64,000 nucleotides of DNA from Lutibacter sp. B2 (GTDB lineage Bacteria > Bacillota > Clostridia > Peptostreptococcales > Thermotaleaceae): positions 1 to 64,000 of the forward strand of contig JADPRS010000015.1 of NCBI GenBank assembly GCA_015686845.1, read 5' to 3'. Positions 5,740 to 13,833 of the stretch are shown here, in pieces. Both the position numbers and the translations under genes were made by a program. Position 1 is the stretch's first letter. Every line of letters starts with the position of its first letter. The notes beneath the pieces were generated by a model. The model did not search any database. It was not told where the DNA came from and worked only from the letters and a program-made list of their open reading frames with translations.

Positions 5740-6354
5740 ATGAAAAGGAATGCAAAAGAAACAGAAAAAAAAATACTACAAGCGGCTATAAATATATTTT
5801 CTAAAAAAGGATTTTCTGCTGCTACAACTAGCGAGATCGCAAAGGAAGCGAAGGTAGCCGAAGGAACAATATTTAAGTATTATCCGAAAAAGAAGGAGCT
5901 GCTTCATGCGGCTATGGTAGAGATGATAGAGTTATTTGGTGAATCCATTGCAATCGATAGCTTGAAAAAAGTAATACAAGAAAATGAAGATCAATCAATT
6001 GAGATCATTTTAAAGGCTATTGTACTAGATAGAATAACTCTTTTTCAAGATCATCTTCAACTAATAAAAGTGATTTTTTATGAAATGCAGTTTCATAAAG
6101 ATATAAAAGAATTATTTCTAAGCAAAGTTTCAAAAAATGGGATTCCAATATTTGCACAAATATTTGAAAAGGGAAAGAAGCAAGGACAATTTAAAGATAT
6201 AAATAGTCTTATTGCAATGAGAAGCTTTATGGGTATGATTATATTTATGCTTCTTCAAAGAGAGTTTTTGTATAAAGAAAATGCATTTGAAAATATTGAA
6301 GAGGAAGTAGATGTACTGATCGATATTTTCTTGAATGGAATAAAAAGGGGGTAA
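5740..6354 (+). CDS. TetR/AcrR-family transcriptional regulator
   Basis: A 204-residue regulator. The N-terminal helix-turn-helix spans about residues 8-54 and shows the family pattern ILQAAINIFSKKGFSAATTS followed by EIAKEAKVAEGTIFKYYPKK. The remainder is a helical ligand-binding and dimerisation domain with no recognised signature. GGAGGAGGGG lies just before the ATG. It is the first gene of an operon with an HlyD-like protein, an ABC ATPase and an ABC-2 permease, and the palindrome at 5700-5719 just upstream is its likely operator. It therefore probably represses the exporter until a ligand (drug, bile-type compound or metabolite) binds; the ligand cannot be read from the sequence. Confidence 0.88.
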   Translation: MKRNAKETEKKILQAAINIFSKKGFSAATTSEIAKEAKVAEGTIFKYYPKKKELLHAAMVEMIELFGESIAIDSLKKVIQENEDQSIEIILKAIVLDRITLFQDHLQLIKVIFYEMQFHKDIKELFLSKVSKNGIPIFAQIFEKGKKQGQFKDINSLIAMRSFMGMIIFMLLQREFLYKENAFENIEEEVDVLIDIFLNGIKRG

Positions 6355-6358
6355 GGAC

Positions 6359-7378
6359 GTGAATAAGAAATTTATAGTATGTATTTTAATGATTTGTATG
6401 TGTTTGTTATCTGCATGTTCATTTAATTCTGAAGAAGATAAAAACGTATATACTGGAACTATAGAATGTGATGATTTTAATATCAGTAGTGAAATAGCAG
6501 GTGCCATTAAAGAAATTGCTATAAAAGAAGGAGATTTTGTTAAAAGGGGAGATCTTATCGCAAGGATTGATGTTGAAAAGTTAAATATTGAATTAGAACA
6601 GACAAATTCAGGACTTACCATAGCAAAGTCAAATTTAAATAAGCTAGAAACAGGGCCAAGAAGTGAAGAAATAAAAAAAGCAATGGCAAAAGTAGAGCAG
6701 GCAAAAACCCTTTCAGAAGGAAAAGAAAAAGAGTATAATTATAGGCTTGAAAATTATAATAAATTGAAAGCATTACATGAAAATGCGGTTGTTTCTGAGC
6801 AAAATGTAAAAGATGCAAAATCTCTTTTGGACCATTCAAAGTCATTATATGAAAGTGGGAAAAAAGAAGTAGAAGCTATGCAGTATCAGCTGGATTTATT
6901 GGTAAAGGGTACAAGATCAGAGGAAATAGAGATGGCAGTGGGGCAAGTACAGAGTGCAACTTCAACGGTTGAGATGATAAAATATAAAATTTCAAAAGCC
7001 AATATAAAATCACCTATAGATGGAGTCATTGAAAATGTAAATTATAATAAGGGTGAAATAATACCTGTCTATGGAAATATTGCAAATATATTAGACTTAA
7101 AAAACATATGGGTAAAAATATATATTCCAGAAAAGGAACTTCATAAAGTTTCTATAGGTAAGGAACTAGATATAAAGGTGGACTTTATTAAAGATCAAAA
7201 ATTAAAGGGAAAGGTTATATTTATTTCTAAAGAAGCAGAATTTACGCCTAAAAATGTTGAATCAAAGGAAAATAAGCAGGAGATGGTATTTGCAGTAAAA
7301 ATAAAAATAGATGAAAGTATAGATGATTTAAAACCTGGAATGCTAATAGACGTAAATTTAGGGGGTGAAAATAAATGA
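6359..7378 (+). CDS. HlyD-like membrane-fusion lipoprotein of an efflux system
   Basis: A 339-residue periplasmic-adaptor-type protein. It starts with GTG (ribosome site AAAGGGGG overlapping the tetR end). A lipoprotein signal peptide ends in the lipobox LSAC with C20, so it should be lipid-anchored on the outer face of the membrane. Then come the first half of a biotinyl-lipoyl domain (GTIECDDFNISSEIAGAIKE), a coiled-coil hairpin (about residues 78-205, with the internal repeat TGPRSEEIKKA / KGTRSEEIEMA), the second lipoyl half (IKSPIDGVIENV), and a beta-barrel domain. It belongs to the YhiI/EmrA-like group that works with ABC-2 exporters. Its stop overlaps the ABC ATPase start (ATGA-type junction), indicating translational coupling. 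Confidence 0.88.
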   Translation: MNKKFIVCILMICMCLLSACSFNSEEDKNVYTGTIECDDFNISSEIAGAIKEIAIKEGDFVKRGDLIARIDVEKLNIELEQTNSGLTIAKSNLNKLETGPRSEEIKKAMAKVEQAKTLSEGKEKEYNYRLENYNKLKALHENAVVSEQNVKDAKSLLDHSKSLYESGKKEVEAMQYQLDLLVKGTRSEEIEMAVGQVQSATSTVEMIKYKISKANIKSPIDGVIENVNYNKGEIIPVYGNIANILDLKNIWVKIYIPEKELHKVSIGKELDIKVDFIKDQKLKGKVIFISKEAEFTPKNVESKENKQEMVFAVKIKIDESIDDLKPGMLIDVNLGGENK

Positions 7379-8157
7379 ATGGGGAAGTAGCCATTATTAC
7401 TGAAAATATCACTAAAAAATTTGGAGAATTTACAGCTGTTGATAAACTCAACATAAAAATTCCAAAAGGAAGTATTTATGGACTGTTAGGGCCAAATGGA
7501 GCAGGGAAATCTACTGCCATAAGAATGTTTTGTGGGGTTCTTACACCAACCGAAGGTAAGGGAGAGGTATTTGGACTAGATGTTTATAAGGATGCTGAAA
7601 AAATAAAGCAAAATATAGGATATATGTCACAAAAATTTAGTTTGTATGAGGATTTAACCGTAATAGAGAATTTGAATTTTTATGCTGATATATATTCAAT
7701 TCCCAAGAAGGTTAAAAATGAAAGAATAGAAGACATTATCAATATGGCAGGTCTGAATGGAAGAGAAAAAAATATAACAAAGACCCTTTCGGGAGGGTGG
7801 AAGCAAAGATTGGCATTAGGGTGTTGTCTTATGCACAAGCCAAGGCTTTTAATATTAGATGAACCTACTGCAGCCGTTGATCCAGTTTCAAGAAGGATAT
7901 TTTGGCAAATTATATATAAGCTTGCGAAACAGGGAATTACAATACTCGTAACAACTCATTATATGGATGAAGCTGAAAGTTGCGATGAAGTTGCATTTAT
8001 ATTTGGAGGCAAAATTATCGGAAAGGGAAATCCTAAAAAAATAATAGAAGAAAAAAATGCAAAGAATTTAGAGGATGTATTTATAAAGTATGTAGAAGAA
8101 CAAACAGGAGAAAAGGTGCAATCTTCATTTGATAAAATCAAATTTATTCAGTCATGA
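7375..8157 (+). CDS. ABC transporter ATP-binding protein (ABC-2 exporter)
   Basis: A 260-residue ATPase that powers export through the adjacent ABC-2 permease. Walker A GPNGAGKST (about residues 40-48), Q-loop (MSQKF), signature LSGGWKQR, Walker B LLILDEP, D-loop and the H-switch (VTTHYMDEAE) are all intact. It resembles the DrrA/CcmA-like drug and polysaccharide exporter ATPases. The start overlaps the end of the HlyD-like gene. A 145-base gap carrying a long inverted repeat separates it from the permease gene, unusual for an otherwise tightly packed operon. Substrate unknown; multidrug or lipophilic-compound efflux is the usual role of the TetR-HlyD-ABC arrangement. Confidence 0.92.
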   Translation: MNGEVAIITENITKKFGEFTAVDKLNIKIPKGSIYGLLGPNGAGKSTAIRMFCGVLTPTEGKGEVFGLDVYKDAEKIKQNIGYMSQKFSLYEDLTVIENLNFYADIYSIPKKVKNERIEDIINMAGLNGREKNITKTLSGGWKQRLALGCCLMHKPRLLILDEPTAAVDPVSRRIFWQIIYKLAKQGITILVTTHYMDEAESCDEVAFIFGGKIIGKGNPKKIIEEKNAKNLEDVFIKYVEEQTGEKVQSSFDKIKFIQS

Positions 8158-8160
8158 TAT

Positions 8161-8245
8161 AGAAAGGGTGTGATTATATAAACGTCGTTCCGGCAAGTAT
8201 GAAGATTGCAAGTCACTCCTTATTATATAATCACACCTTTTTAAA
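8161..8245 (+). other. Long inverted repeat with 41-base loop between ABC ATPase and permease genes
   Basis: GGTGTGATTATATAA on the left (ending 8181) pairs exactly with TTATATAATCACACC on the right (from 8223), extended by a G-T pair and A-T pairs; the right arm ends in TTTTT. The loop holds two GCAAGT copies 14-15 bases apart. It may be an intrinsic terminator or attenuator, a small RNA, or the remnant of a small mobile element. A weak promoter (TGGAAA 8247-8252, TATAAT 8269-8274) follows it and could drive the permease separately. Confidence 0.6.
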
Positions 8246-8302
8246 ATGGAAAGTATAAAGTTGCTTTTTATAATAAAGGTTGGTAGAGGAAGGTGAGTGA
8301 AT

Positions 8303-9436
8303 ATGAGTCTTAGAAGATTAATGACAATTGTAAAAAAGGAATTTATTCATATAAAAAGAGATAAAGCAAGCCTTGGAATGGCTATTATGATGCCGATTGT
8401 ATTTATCATGTTATTTGGATATGCAGTAAATACGGATGTTGAGAATATAAAAATAGCCGTTATGGATACGGATCATACGGTTCAAAGTAGAGAACTTGTA
8501 AGTAAATTTAAAAATTCTGATTATTTTTGTCCTGATGTTTATGTAAAAAGTACAAAAGAGCTTGAAAAATTAATAGATAATGGAGATGTAAAGGCAGGTA
8601 TTATTATTCCATCTGGGTTTTCAAAGAAAATAAAAACAGGGAAAAATCCACAAATGCAACTAATCATTGATGGAACAGATCCTACCATCGCACGGACAGC
8701 ACTTCAAAATGGAATGATGCTTACAGAAATGTACTCTGTTAAAATACAGGAAAAAGAATTAATAAAAAAAGGATTGAATAATAATAAATCAAAAAATATA
8801 GATGTCAGAACAAGGGTATGGTATAATCCAAATCTAGAAAGTACAAAGTTTACAATACCAGGACTTATTGGACTGATTATGCAAAACATTACTGTTATGC
8901 TCACTGCATTTTCTTTAGTACGGGAAAAAGAAAATGGAACACTAGAATTATTAATTGTAACGCCTATAAAATCTGCCGAACTTATTTTGGGAAAGATGAT
9001 CCCGTATATTTTCATTGGATCAATTGATTTTTTGATTGCATTATTTTTTGGCAGTTATTTATTTCAAGTACCTATAGAGGGGAGTCTTTTTCTTTTAATT
9101 GTATTAGGTTTTGGATTTGTCATTTGTTCTTTAGCCATAGGAATGCTTATTTCAACAATCGCACAAAATCAAGCACAAGCTATGCAAATGACTATATTTT
9201 TCATACTTCCAAGTGTCCTTCTTTCAGGATTTATATTTCCAATGGAAGCAATGCCTAAACTAATACAAAGTGCAGGATATTTTATACCACTCACTTATTT
9301 TTTAAAGATATTAAGAGGAATTATATTAAAGGGGATTGGTCTAAATTATTTATGGAAGGAAGTAATTATTCTTTTTAATTTTGGGATGATCCTTTTAATA
9401 TTTGCTTCTATAAGATTTAAAAAGAAATTAGATTAA
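8303..9436 (+). CDS. ABC-2 type exporter permease
   Basis: A 377-residue integral membrane protein. One transmembrane segment near the N-terminus (IMMPIVFIMLFGYAVN) is followed by a large extracytoplasmic domain (about residues 45-170), then a cluster of five membrane segments from about residue 180 to 370 containing the family motif VREKENGTLELLIVTP and the late FIFPMEAMP loop, the ABC-2 (YhhJ/YbhR) topology. The ATG at 8303 is preferred over the GTG at 8297 because AGGTGA ends six bases before it. It should form a homodimer with the ATPase encoded at 7375-8157 and dock to the HlyD-like lipoprotein. Many related systems have two permease genes; only one is present here. Confidence 0.88.
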   Translation: MSLRRLMTIVKKEFIHIKRDKASLGMAIMMPIVFIMLFGYAVNTDVENIKIAVMDTDHTVQSRELVSKFKNSDYFCPDVYVKSTKELEKLIDNGDVKAGIIIPSGFSKKIKTGKNPQMQLIIDGTDPTIARTALQNGMMLTEMYSVKIQEKELIKKGLNNNKSKNIDVRTRVWYNPNLESTKFTIPGLIGLIMQNITVMLTAFSLVREKENGTLELLIVTPIKSAELILGKMIPYIFIGSIDFLIALFFGSYLFQVPIEGSLFLLIVLGFGFVICSLAIGMLISTIAQNQAQAMQMTIFFILPSVLLSGFIFPMEAMPKLIQSAGYFIPLTYFLKILRGIILKGIGLNYLWKEVIILFNFGMILLIFASIRFKKKLD

Positions 9437-9439
9437 TAT

Positions 9440-9504
9440 TTAACATCCATTTAACAAAAGGTTCATATTCTTTTAACATTATTATTGTAAAATTAGCCTA
9501 TAAT
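9440..9504 (+). promoter_or_regulatory. PhoP-box array and promoter of pstS
   Basis: Four hexamers at exactly 11-base steps: TTAACA at 9440, 9451 and 9473, and TTCATA at 9462. A -10 TATAAT lies at 9499-9504, 20 bases after the last hexamer. Direct TTAACA-type repeats with 5-base gaps are the binding pattern of PhoP, the response regulator of phosphate starvation in Firmicutes, which replaces a -35. No PhoPR genes are in the window. Confidence 0.85.
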
Positions 9505-9551
9505 AATGATTAAGAAAACAAAACCTTTAAAAATGAATGGAGGAAAATAAA

Positions 9552-10406
9552 ATGAAAAAGTTTTTAGAAATTTCGTTAGCACTTATGTTAACAATAGGTT
9601 TATTAGGTGGTTGTGGAGCAAAGGAAGAAGCAAAAGTGCCTGAAGGTTCTACATTATCAGGTAAGATTGTAATTGCAGGTTCAACATCTGTACAGCCATT
9701 ATCAGAAGAATTAGCAGATGCATTTACGGAAAAATACCCAGAAGTATCGATTGAAGTACAAGGTGGAGGTTCAAGTGTTGGAGTAAAATCAGCGAAAGAA
9801 AAAATTGCAGATATGGGCGCTTCCTCTAGAGCGGTAAAAGAATCAGAAAAAGAATATGGATTAACAGAGTATGTTATTGCAAAGGATGGTATAGCTGTTG
9901 TTGTAAATCCATCAAATAAGGTTGATGATTTATCATTGGAGCAAATAAAGAAAATATTTACAGGAGCAATTACCAACTGGAAAGAAGTAGGGGGAGCAGA
10001 TAAAGAAATAACAGTAGTAAGTAGAGAAGATGGTTCTGGTACAAGAGGTGCTTTTGTAGAAATTACAAAAGTTTTAGATGAAAATGGGGAAGGAAAAAAG
10101 ATTGATAATACGACTAAAAATGCATTGGTTCAACCTTCTACAGGTGCTGTAAAGCAAACTGTTGCCAATACACCAGATGCAATTGGATATATTTCAATGG
10201 GTGGTATGGATGATACAGTGAAAGATGTTAAGGTTGAAGGCGTAAGTGCTACAGAAGAGAATGCAAAGGCAGGAACATATAAAATATCAAGACCATTCTT
10301 ATACTTAACAAATGGAGAAGAATCAGAAGTAGTAAAGAAATATATGGAGTTTGTTTTAAATGAGGGGCAAGAAATTGTTAAAGAAGAGTTCATTTCAGTA
10401 AAATGA
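9552..10406 (+). CDS. pstS: Phosphate ABC transporter, phosphate-binding lipoprotein
   Basis: A 284-residue extracellular phosphate receptor anchored by lipid. The signal peptide ends at lipobox LGGC with C21. Phosphate-contacting segments are visible: AGSTSVQPL, GGGSSVGVKS, MGASSRAVK, and REDGSGTRGAF, followed by QPSTGAVKQTVANTPDAIGY. The ATG at 9552 follows GGAGG at 9539-9543; an in-frame upstream ATG at 9537 overlaps that site and is rejected. A terminator follows, then a second PhoP-box promoter in front of pstC, so pstS is separable from the rest: receptor made in excess, with limited read-through into pstCAB. Induction under phosphate starvation is inferred from the promoter. Confidence 0.95.
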   Translation: MKKFLEISLALMLTIGLLGGCGAKEEAKVPEGSTLSGKIVIAGSTSVQPLSEELADAFTEKYPEVSIEVQGGGSSVGVKSAKEKIADMGASSRAVKESEKEYGLTEYVIAKDGIAVVVNPSNKVDDLSLEQIKKIFTGAITNWKEVGGADKEITVVSREDGSGTRGAFVEITKVLDENGEGKKIDNTTKNALVQPSTGAVKQTVANTPDAIGYISMGGMDDTVKDVKVEGVSATEENAKAGTYKISRPFLYLTNGEESEVVKKYMEFVLNEGQEIVKEEFISVK

Positions 10407-10410
10407 TTTA

Positions 10411-10460
10411 GAAAAGACCATGGAGGTTATCTTGATTAAGATAACTTTCATGGTCTTTTC
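10411..10460 (+). terminator. Terminator between pstS and pstC
   Basis: GAAAAGACCATG pairs with CATGGTCTTTTC (10449-10460) and inner segments GTTATCTT/AAGATAAC also pair around a 4-base loop, giving a stem above 20 bp. The T run is short, so partial read-through is plausible. Confidence 0.75.
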
Positions 10461-10486
10461 ATTATAAAAATTAACTAGATTTAAAT

Positions 10487-10540
10487 TTAACATGGATTTA
10501 ACATTGCGTTAACCTCTACATAAAGAAAGAAGAATATAAT
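10487..10540 (+). promoter_or_regulatory. PhoP-box array and promoter of pstCAB-phoU
   Basis: TTAACA at 10487 and 10498 and TTAACC at 10509, again 11 bases apart, with -10 TATAAT at 10535-10540, 20 bases after the last hexamer. The geometry is the same as at the pstS promoter. Confidence 0.83.
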
Positions 10541-10586
10541 GATGATGTAAGATGAATAAACAATGAATTTTGGAAGGAGTATTGAT

Positions 10587-11471
10587 ATGAAAATCCATGA
10601 GAAGATAATAGAAACGATTCTATTCATCTGTGCAGCAATTGCCACATTATCTGTATTATTAATTACAGTATTTATTTTTAAAGAAGGGTTGCCTGTACTT
10701 AAGAGTTATGGCGTTTTCAATTTTATATTTGGTAAAACATGGAGTCCTACAAATGAACAGTTTGGTGCACTACCTATGATCATGGGTTCTATATCAGTAA
10801 CATTAGGAGCATTAGTAATAGGGGTTCCTATGGGCATTGCTTGTGCAATATTTTTAGCAGAAATTGCGCCTAAATCAGTAGTAAAGATATTTAAGCCTGC
10901 CGTTGAATTATTAGCAGGAATACCATCTGTTGTTTATGGATTTTTTGGATTGGCTGTGGTAGTTCCAATTATAAGAACAAATATTTTGCCCATTATACAA
11001 AAATTTAATCCAGATGCTAATACGTCGGGATACAGTATCTTAGGAGGCGCTATAATCTTAGCCGTTATGATTCTTCCTACCATTGTAAACATATCTGAAA
11101 ATGCAATAAAAGCGGTTCCTTTTGAGTATAAACAAGGATCACTTGCTTTAGGTGCATCTCATTTTGAAACAATTACGAAAGTAATCATACCAGCAGCAAA
11201 ATCTGGAATTATAACTTCTATTGTATTAGGAATGGGAAGAGCCGTTGGAGAAACCATGGCAGTAATACTGATAACAGGAAATATGCCAAAGGTTCCAGGA
11301 AGTGTATTAGACTCTGTCGCTACGCTTACAGGGACTATTGCAATGGAGATGGGATATGCTGGCCCTATGCATCAAAGAGCATTATTTGCAACTGGAATTA
11401 TATTGTTTGTGTTTATTATGATGTTGAATATAATAGCGAGCACAACATTAAAAAGAGTAGGAAGGGGATAA
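10587..11471 (+). CDS. pstC: Phosphate ABC transporter permease PstC
   Basis: A 294-residue inner-membrane permease with six membrane segments. The binding-protein-dependent transport signature is visible as EYKQGSLALGASHFETITKV about two-thirds along, and LAGIPSVVYGFFGLAVVVP marks the Pst family. It forms the channel with PstA. The ATG at 10587 is chosen because AAGGAG (10574-10579) is well spaced; an upstream in-frame ATG at 10563 lacks a ribosome site. First gene of the pstCAB-phoU operon behind its own PhoP-type promoter; five bases separate its stop from pstA. Confidence 0.94.
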   Translation: MKIHEKIIETILFICAAIATLSVLLITVFIFKEGLPVLKSYGVFNFIFGKTWSPTNEQFGALPMIMGSISVTLGALVIGVPMGIACAIFLAEIAPKSVVKIFKPAVELLAGIPSVVYGFFGLAVVVPIIRTNILPIIQKFNPDANTSGYSILGGAIILAVMILPTIVNISENAIKAVPFEYKQGSLALGASHFETITKVIIPAAKSGIITSIVLGMGRAVGETMAVILITGNMPKVPGSVLDSVATLTGTIAMEMGYAGPMHQRALFATGIILFVFIMMLNIIASTTLKRVGRG

Positions 11472-11475
11472 TATT

Positions 11476-12360
11476 ATGCATGTTGTTGGCAAATTGAGTG
11501 TGAAAAAACCAATTTTTAATAGACCAAAGAAAAAAACAAATATAAAAGAGAAAATAGCCTATATCTGTATATATGCTGTAGCTTTAATAACAATGTTAGC
11601 TTTGATATCTATTATAGGATATGTACTATTAAATGGGATACAACATATCAATTTAGAATTTTTCACACAAGAACCAAGAAGCATGGGAAGAAAAGGTGGT
11701 ATATTTTCTATCATAGTAGGAACCATATATTTGACGATTGTATCAATTGCTATAGCTACACCAATAGGCATAGGTGCTGCTATATATCTAACGGAGTATG
11801 CAAAAGAAAATAAATTAATAAAGATTATAAGATTTGGTACGGAAACTTTAGCAGGAATACCATCTATTATATTTGGATTATTTGGATTTGTATTCTTTGT
11901 AATATTTTTAGGATTTAGGTGGTCTATCCTATCGGGCGGATTAACACTTGCTATAATGATCCTTCCAACATTGATTAGGACCACAGAAGAATCTATTAAA
12001 ACCGTACCCAATTCTTTAAGAGAAGGAAGTTTAGCACTAGGAGCTACAAAATGGCAAACCATTGTTAAAGTCGTTTTACCAAGTAGTATACCTGGGATAT
12101 TAACAGGTTTGATATTAGGCATAGGTAGAGCTATAGGAGAGACAGCTGCGATTATGTTAACAGCAGGAAGCTCATTAGGTATACCTGAATCTATCATGGA
12201 TCCTACAAGAACTATGTCTGTTCATGTGTATCTGTTAGCATCAGAGGGATTGTCAAAGGAAAAAACTTTTGCTACAGCTTCCGTATTGATCATATTTGTT
12301 TTGATTATAAATCTTTCAGCAAATATGGTAGCTAATAAATATATAAAAAAATTGATATAG
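11476..12360 (+). CDS. pstA: Phosphate ABC transporter permease PstA
   Basis: A 294-residue permease partner of PstC. After a basic cytoplasmic N-terminus of about 30 residues come six membrane segments. Family features include [18 protein letters not shown], the EAA-type loop [21 protein letters not shown], and [17 protein letters not shown]. The N-terminal extension is lysine-rich. GGAAGGGG lies before the ATG. It sits between pstC (4 bases before) and pstB (22 bases after). Confidence 0.94.
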
Positions 12361-12382
12361 TATATTGAAGGGGGATAAAATT

Positions 12383-13144
12383 ATGGTAAATAATACGAAA
12401 ATAAAGGTTAGAAACCTCAATCTTTTTTATGGAGAACATCAGGCGTTAATAGATGTAAATATGGATATTATGAAAAATAAGGTAACTGCACTTATTGGCC
12501 CTTCAGGATGTGGAAAATCTACTTTTTTAAGAACTTTAAATAGAATGAATGACCTTATAGATGGTGTGAAAATAAAGGGAGACGTACTTTTAGATGATGT
12601 GGATATATATGGAAATGAAAGTGATTTAATAAATTTAAGAAAAAATGTTGGGATGGTTTTTCAAAAACCAAATCCTTTTCCTAAAACAATCTATGAAAAT
12701 GTAGCATATGGACCTAAAATACATGGAATAAAGAAAAAATCAGAGTTAGATGAAATTGTTGAAAAGAGTTTAAAAGGGGCGGCACTTTGGGATGAAGTAA
12801 AGGATAGACTTGATAAGCCAGCTTTGGGATTATCTGGAGGACAGCAACAAAGACTTTGTATTGCCAGATGTTTAGCTGTTGAACCGGATGTAATATTAAT
12901 GGATGAACCTACATCTGCATTAGATCCTATCTCAACGGTTAAGGTGGAAAATTTATTAGATGAGCTTAAGGCTAAATATACAATTGTAATTGTAACACAT
13001 AATATGCAACAAGCTGGAAGGGTATCTGATTATACATCCTTTTTTTTAAACGGTAAAATTATAGAAACGGATTTAACGGAGAATATATTTTCAAATCCTA
13101 GAGATAAGAGAACAGAGGATTATATTACAGGAAGATTTAGCTAA
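12383..13144 (+). CDS. pstB: Phosphate ABC transporter ATPase PstB
   Basis: A 253-residue ATPase driving phosphate import. Walker [10 protein letters not shown] (about residues 39-47), Q-loop [10 protein letters not shown], signature LSGGQQQR, Walker [14 protein letters not shown] and switch histidine (VTHNMQQA) are all intact. Length is normal for PstB. The ATG at 12383 follows GAAGGGGG; an in-frame upstream ATG at 12365 lies before this site and is rejected. It is 38 bases upstream of phoU. Confidence 0.96.
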
Positions 13145-13182
13145 GCTATATAAGTAAAATAACTTATTGGGGGTAGAACAGA

Positions 13183-13833
13183 ATGCCAAGATTACAATTG
13201 TCAAATGAGTTAGAAAAACTACACAATGATTTATTAAAGCTAGGAAATATGGTTGAAAATGCTATCTTGGATTCAATAAAATCTTTGAAAAATCAAGATA
13301 TAAAGCTAGCAAATAAAGTGGTAGATGGAGATGAAATAATTAATTCTTTAGAAGAAGAGATTGGCGATAAATGTATTAAATTAATTGCTACCCAACAGCC
13401 TATGGCAATTGATTTGAGGGAAATATGCGCTATTTTAAGATTGATTGCAGATTTAGAAAGAATGGCTGATCATGCAGTTGATATTGCAAAATTTACAATA
13501 GAGTTAGCGGGTGAAAAATATATGAAGGCATTGATAGATATACCTAGAATGGCTGATTTATCAATAGAGATGGTAAGGAAATCTTTAGAGGCTTTTATTA
13601 AAAAAGATATTGTTCTTGCAAAAGAAACCTGGGCTTTAGATGAGACTGTTGATGATATATATAAACAAATATATAGAGAATTACTAACCTATATGATAGA
13701 AGACCCAAAAAAAATTACACAATCTACTTACTTCTTATTTATTTGTTCTCATATTGAAAGAATAGCTGATTATGCTAAAAATGTATGTGAAAAGGTTGTG
13801 TTTATTCAAACAGGCGGGTATTCTATGAAATAG
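13183..13833 (+). CDS. phoU: Phosphate signalling regulator PhoU
   Basis: A 216-residue all-helical protein with two PhoU repeats (about residues 10-100 and 115-205), each a three-helix bundle with the metal-binding pattern (ADLERMADHAVDIAK in the first, SHIERIADYAKNVCEKV in the second). PhoU restrains Pst transport and the Pho response when phosphate is plentiful. Ribosome site GGGGG before the ATG. Last gene of the pst operon, followed by a terminator. No sensor kinase or response regulator gene lies beside it. Confidence 0.94.
   Translation: MPRLQLSNELEKLHNDLLKLGNMVENAILDSIKSLKNQDIKLANKVVDGDEIINSLEEEIGDKCIKLIATQQPMAIDLREICAILRLIADLERMADHAVDIAKFTIELAGEKYMKALIDIPRMADLSIEMVRKSLEAFIKKDIVLAKETWALDETVDDIYKQIYRELLTYMIEDPKKITQSTYFLFICSHIERIADYAKNVCEKVVFIQTGGYSMK

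Follow-up and report, generated by a model that had tools for sequence, protein, structure and literature searches.

The analysed stretch of DNA (the window) comprised the 64,000 bases 1-64000 of contig C62, from a genome of 3.24 Mb in 77 contigs that its relatives place in the Clostridia. On its + strand, pstS, pstC, pstA, pstB and phoU follow one another from 9552 to 13833, and each exceeded its own NCBIfam cut-off. The list of open reading frames gives 9537 as the start of pstS; an ATG at 9552 is preceded by GGAGG. Nearest to PstC among named genomes, from which four relatives were recovered, were the proteins of Anaerophilus nitritogenes and Thermotalea metallivorans (77% each). At 5740-9436 of the window, a TetR-type regulator is followed by a membrane fusion lipoprotein, an ABC ATPase and an ABC permease (translations read by eye), and this efflux system stops just short of the pstS promoter. 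The features of the locus are:

9440..9478, + strand: pstS array, four slots at 11-base steps (TTAACA 9440, TTAACA 9451, TTCATA 9462, TTAACA 9473)
9488..9493, + strand: candidate -10 of pstS, TAAAAT, gap 9 after the last hexamer; position conserved in relatives
9499..9504, + strand: second candidate -10 of pstS, TATAAT, gap 20 after the last hexamer
9552..10406, + strand: pstS, phosphate-binding lipoprotein (TIGR02136, 231.9 bits, cut-off 206.6)
10411..10460, + strand: terminator-like hairpin (predicted fold) with a short U run, downstream of pstS and upstream of the pstC promoter
10487..10525, + strand: pstC array (TTAACA 10487, TTAACA 10498, TTAACC 10509, degenerate slot 4 ATAAAG 10520-10525)
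10535..10540, + strand: -10 of pstC, TATAAT, gap 20 from slot 3 and gap 9 from slot 4
10587..11471, + strand: pstC, permease (TIGR02138, 309.7 bits, cut-off 196.45)
11476..12360, + strand: pstA, permease (TIGR00974, 312.1 bits, cut-off 193.45)
12383..13144, + strand: pstB, ATPase (TIGR00972, 424.1 bits, cut-off 343.2)
13183..13833, + strand: phoU (TIGR02135, 222.3 bits, cut-off 130.25)

The earlier note had reported TTAACA-type hexamers in exact 11-base steps before pstS and pstC, and a motif search of the window found both arrays. Slot 3 of the pstS array (9462) is a poor TTCATA with two mismatches to TTAACA. Three-hexamer arrays with ≤2 mismatches occurred three times in the window (two overlapping frames at pstS, one at pstC), against a chance level of 0.025 per window on both strands (200 first-order Markov resamples). 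With ≤3 mismatches, a step control over steps 7-21 gave three arrays at step 11 and three at step 13; for two hexamers with ≤1 mismatch, step 21 tied with step 11 at four each. The weight of the arrays lies in near-perfect matches and position rather than in loose counts.

Both arrays, 11-base direct repeats upstream of a -10 box as in a Pho box of the PhoP/PhoB type, were present in 13/13 distinct relatives. In this set, each of the pairs L048/L063 and L049/L064 counts once, since the stretches shown match exactly; L055 (contig end) and L065 (53% identity, different cluster) were excluded. Slot 4 of the pstS array reads TTAACA in all 13 relatives, and slot 3 reads TTTATN in 12 and ATCATC in one. 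These slot counts demanded exact slots 2 and 4, and a looser rule recovered the same arrays.

Both arrays were said in the earlier note to share one geometry, each ending 20 bases before a TATAAT. Within the window this stood, with TATAAT at gap 20 at 9499 and at 10535, but the pstS half of the identity may be wrong, as the -10 of the relatives lies at gap 9. There it was found in 13/13 distinct relatives (TATACT in 12, TATAAT in one), and a TAnnnT box at gap 20 before pstS was found in 0/13. Counted from slot 3, the TAnnnT box of pstC stands at gap 20 in 11/13 distinct relatives and at gap 31 in L061 and L063. Since the window carries both boxes (TAAAAT at gap 9, TATAAT at gap 20), its pstS promoter fits both geometries, and transcription of pstS is about equally likely to start at ~9500 (from TAAAAT at 9488) or at ~9511 (from TATAAT at 9499). 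A matrix built from 27 promoters (gap-20 subset) outside this genome scored the pst sites at 30.0, 29.6 (the pstC-array frame without the -10) and 26.7, and the rest of the window at ≤11.3. Its preference for 9499 over 9488 (30.0 vs 11.2) is partly circular because of the gap-20 training subset. Should pstS use the gap-9 box, its promoter and that of pstC would share a frame with slot starts 48, 37, 26 and 15 bases upstream of the -10. In this frame the weak slot of pstS is slot 3, which holds for all 13 relatives; at pstC it is slots 3 and 4 that fall off, with L050 and L051 showing the least weakness in slot 4.

For the order, the three-hexamer pattern with ≤1 mismatch matched in 65/148 genomes. 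There were 121 matches against 24 for the reversed pattern in 146/148 genomes; both counts include overlapping frames, and two genomes full of tandem repeats were dropped. Many tandem TTAACAATRGT-type 11-base units inflate motif counts in G039, G126 and G303. The order sample consisted of 30 loci and 53 places hand-picked among the matches listed, with near-copies skipped (L082-L164 minus the tandem-repeat locus L090: 89 rows, 88 distinct). Among the matches listed, a Pst or NptA gene lay downstream in the right orientation for 52/88 arrays, a phosphate gene lay only in the reverse direction for 6/88, and 30/88 had none. Five of the six reverse arrays share their region with a forward array; the reverse array without a strict forward partner (L108) has weak forward ones at four mismatches.

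Distances to the -10 were collected for the 44 non-redundant Pst/NptA arrays that remained among the matches listed after unlabelled and near-identical rows had been removed. A TAnnnT box (≥4/6 matches; ~1.6 per position expected from shuffles) stood at gap 20 in 27 and at gap 9 in seven (binomial 5e-28 and 0.001, respectively), at gaps 7 and 18 in six each, at gap 16 in none and at gap 17 in two. Gaps 7 and 18 also exceed the expected number, and many boxes there may reflect TATA-rich sequence next to a box at gap 9 or 20. By gene, gap 20 was found in 12/24 NptA, 8/12 PstS and 5/5 PstS2 arrays among the matches listed. The 20-base distance is thus a real preference within the order. A phylum scan gave a match in 38/199 genomes and 30 loci (L003 and 29 new), including ten arrays with a recognised Pst gene. 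The preference is shown for the order only, because the TAnnnT gap in these ten was 15 in four, 9 in three and 20 in three.

In the window's own genome, the array with ≤3 mismatches was not enriched (16 matches vs 24 for the control), nor was the two-hexamer pattern with ≤1 mismatch (four places vs six for the control). The best match genome-wide was the pstC array (one mismatch); the pstS array (two mismatches) tied with a match on contig C73. As further PhoP targets, the C73 match was rejected on its position within a kinase-like reading frame, C74:3185 on its position opposite an sbcC-like frame, and C52:47052 on finding no frame of at least 100 codons that starts within 250 bases downstream (control 6 vs 4). 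The other 12 matches (L007-L018) all have three mismatches, and 8/12 lie inside a stop-to-stop stretch of at least 100 codons. On C74, nptA is preceded by TTAACA-N5-TTAACA-N20-TATACT with zero mismatches, which makes it a likely further PhoP target. Of the many hits before Pho genes that the genome scan suggested in the earlier note might yield, pstS, pstC and nptA stood out, but no others.

A second pst cluster with pstS, two permeases and an ATPase (by eye) lies on contig C54 of the same genome, G000 (L043:6989-10401, - strand). No PhoP array was found at this cluster. Its pstS matched the PstS model below the cut-off, and no phoU was seen beside it. The short region before this pstS contains AATAAACCGAG twice. 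Two relatives, G012 and G013, have arrays at most ~4 kb from their second pst cluster.

The OmpR/PhoB-type DNA-binding domain gave 20 matches in the genome, and 10 of the 20 regulators were scanned against NCBIfam. A two-component pair on contig C13 (L046) consists of a response regulator and a kinase of 590 aa. The regulator scored 270.7 bits with the PhoB model (cut-off 296.2) and 275.7 with YycF/WalR (cut-off 340). Because the curated PhoB cut-off was not reached, the name PhoP for it rests on gene neighbourhood and identity. It is 77% identical to the regulator upstream of pstS in L048 (Anaerophilus), 75% in L049 (Thermotalea), 64% in L050 and 62% in L051, and in these four loci the C13-like regulator is followed by a kinase matching that of C13, upstream of pstS. 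The C-terminus of this kinase stands just upstream of pstS in 9/12 family loci, counted apart from the window's own locus and the distant L065. The contig of L055 breaks off and the L059 stretch has only 17 bases before its array, which leaves 9/10 informative loci; L056 is the only informative family locus without the kinase end. In the window's genome, phoPR lies on C13, apart from pst, and pst is preceded by the apparent ABC efflux operon (by eye). The earlier note had staked its reading on a PhoP homolog in the genome; by synteny and identity, the C13 pair is a PhoP-PhoR (PhoB-PhoR) pair.

The hairpin at 10411-10460 has a predicted folding energy of -33 kcal/mol (z -9.9), and 0/200 shuffles were as good. 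The hairpin of the terminator proposed for this position is thus borne out as a predicted fold, though with a short U run. A hairpin was predicted at the same place in 12/12 distinct loci in which a pstS stop was found (folds taken without shuffle control; L059, with no pstS stop found, and L055, with its contig end, left out). The split of pst is conserved in relatives, with a second array and a predicted hairpin separating pstS from pstC, so the hairpin and the two promoters appear to be long-standing features of the locus. A separate expression level for pstS, as the earlier note had proposed, is plausible since the hairpin is conserved.

Both arrays are very probably PhoP boxes, through which the C13 PhoPR pair would drive two promoters, one for pstS alone and one for pstCAB-phoU. 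PhoP control of both units, likewise put forward in the earlier note, draws support from the identity of the genes, the PhoPR pair, the conservation of the arrays and their association with phosphate genes; PhoP-PhoR orthologs adjoin pstS in relatives, and arrays precede phosphate-transport genes (here pstS, pstC and nptA). From these observations we infer the following course of binding, activation and termination. Under phosphate shortage, the C13-encoded PhoR kinase would phosphorylate PhoP, which would align head to tail on the 11-base repeats along a single helix face. PhoP would then recruit RNA polymerase to two promoters without a correctly placed -35. Action of PhoP from a single helix face would fit both the 11-base repeats and the preference of the -10 for multiples of the step. 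Promoter 1 would give a pstS-only message that mostly stops at the 10411-10460 hairpin, and promoter 2 a pstCAB-phoU message. The level of the binding protein could thereby differ from that of the membrane transporter, while both would answer the same signal.

Three other readings of the arrays were weighed against control by the C13 pair. The regulator of a second PhoB-like pair, on contig C18, might act on the arrays in its stead: its best model is TIGR02154 PhoB (238.6 bits, below cut-off) and a kinase adjoins it. This regulator is however more distant from the pst-linked regulator in 4/4 loci that show one (59, 59, 56 and 55% for L048, L049, L050 and L051), its kinase is shorter (469 vs 590 aa), and the neighbours of the pair are unlike phosphate genes by eye (L047:5599-7745, beside an apparent tripartite-tricarboxylate-type transporter). 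It was rejected on these grounds as a very improbable regulator of the arrays. Recognition of the arrays by WalR (YycF), a cell-wall regulator, was rejected as highly improbable. The WalR box has the consensus TGTWAH-N5-TGTWAH, to which the opposite strand, reading TGTTAA-N5-TGTTAA, conforms; one regulator of the genome passes the YycF cut-off (351.3 vs 340 bits), and for the C13 regulator the YycF score slightly exceeds the PhoB score. The two systems thus share hexamer direct repeats with an 11-base step, but they differ in orientation and target genes. At both pst promoters the coding strand reads TTAACA, the genes behind these two sites serve phosphate uptake rather than the cell wall, order arrays precede phosphate-uptake genes, mostly in one orientation (52 forward vs 6 reverse of 88 among the matches listed), and PhoPR adjoins pstS in relatives.

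Spacing speaks against the reading of the hexamers as repeated -35 elements of ordinary promoters. TTAACA is one base off TTGACA, and gap 18 occurs in 6/44 order promoters among the matches listed. An ordinary spacer would be 16-18 bases, but the gap in the window is 20, and in the order the peaks lie at 20 (27/44) and 9 (7/44), with 0, 2 and 6 of 44 at 16, 17 and 18. In addition, a lone -35 has no need of phased repeats. The reading was rejected as highly improbable.

For the promoters taken as PhoP-driven, a further proposal is tentative and has somewhat less than an even chance of being right. The distance from array to -10 in the order would mostly move by the 11-base repeat (9, 20, sometimes 31), so that a promoter could gain or shift its -10 by a whole step and keep PhoP control. 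The pstS promoter of the window would then have been caught mid-change, with the old -10 at gap 9, where relatives have their sole one, and at gap 20 a newer one of consensus sequence. The identity of the weak slots (slot 3 for pstS, slots 3 and 4 for pstC) might set the output ratio of binding protein to transporter.

PhoP of Firmicutes such as B. subtilis binds TT(A/T)ACA-type repeats in an ~11-base register; Liu and Hulett 1998, a reference in PMC6232261, reportedly describes the B. subtilis boxes. Like the Pho regulon of B. subtilis PhoPR, the system described here has ~11-base direct repeats before pst and a PhoP-PhoR pair. It differs in its two PhoP-type promoters within pst with a hairpin between them, and in its phoU, which B. 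subtilis lacks according to PMC4415409. The same paper gives the Pho box of the PhoB/PhoP family as 11-base repeats bound head to tail, and the E. coli PhoB box as two 11-nt direct repeat units with the core CTGTCAT (PMC4415409). The 11-nt unit and tandem head-to-tail binding of a PhoB-type regulator, predicted here from sequence, agree with that account, whereas the core differs from CTGTCAT and three or four slots stand here against two there. In S. aureus, pst and nptA answer to phosphate and PhoPR according to PMC13170248, as predicted here for both; that system has in addition the transporter PitA and the regulator PitR (PMC13170248). Pho boxes of Clostridia were not found as a topic in the open-access titles and abstracts searched. 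The locus is a known phosphate-starvation system, an ordinary Pho regulon with some conserved layout details. Of these, the conservation of two promoters and the -10 positions in 11-base steps may be less known.

The arrays provide a phosphate-starvation motif with which a little-studied order of Clostridia can be searched, and the favoured distance to the -10 can sharpen regulon prediction. They also display a conserved split of pst into two putative PhoP promoters. Further possible targets are nptA here, and chemoreceptors and a phosphonate-binding protein in other genomes. Among the matches listed, arrays precede genes with dCache and/or chemoreceptor signalling domains at eight order loci (L102, L123, L140, L129, L132, L160, L161 and L163; L129 below the Pfam cut-off), which suggests that chemotaxis may be under phosphate-starvation control in the order. 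A -10-like box stands at gap 9, 20 or 31 in 6/8 of these loci, and 4/6 also have boxes at other gaps (raw counts). Back-to-back arrays adjoin nptA in L091, L101, L111, L133 and L136. Away from nptA, these five loci showed no clear gene (L133 has a doubtful 103-aa frame), and the array on that side may belong to a small RNA or be an upstream activation site. In L119:503-1540, an array with TATAAT at gap 20 precedes a phosphonate-binding ABC protein (PF12974).
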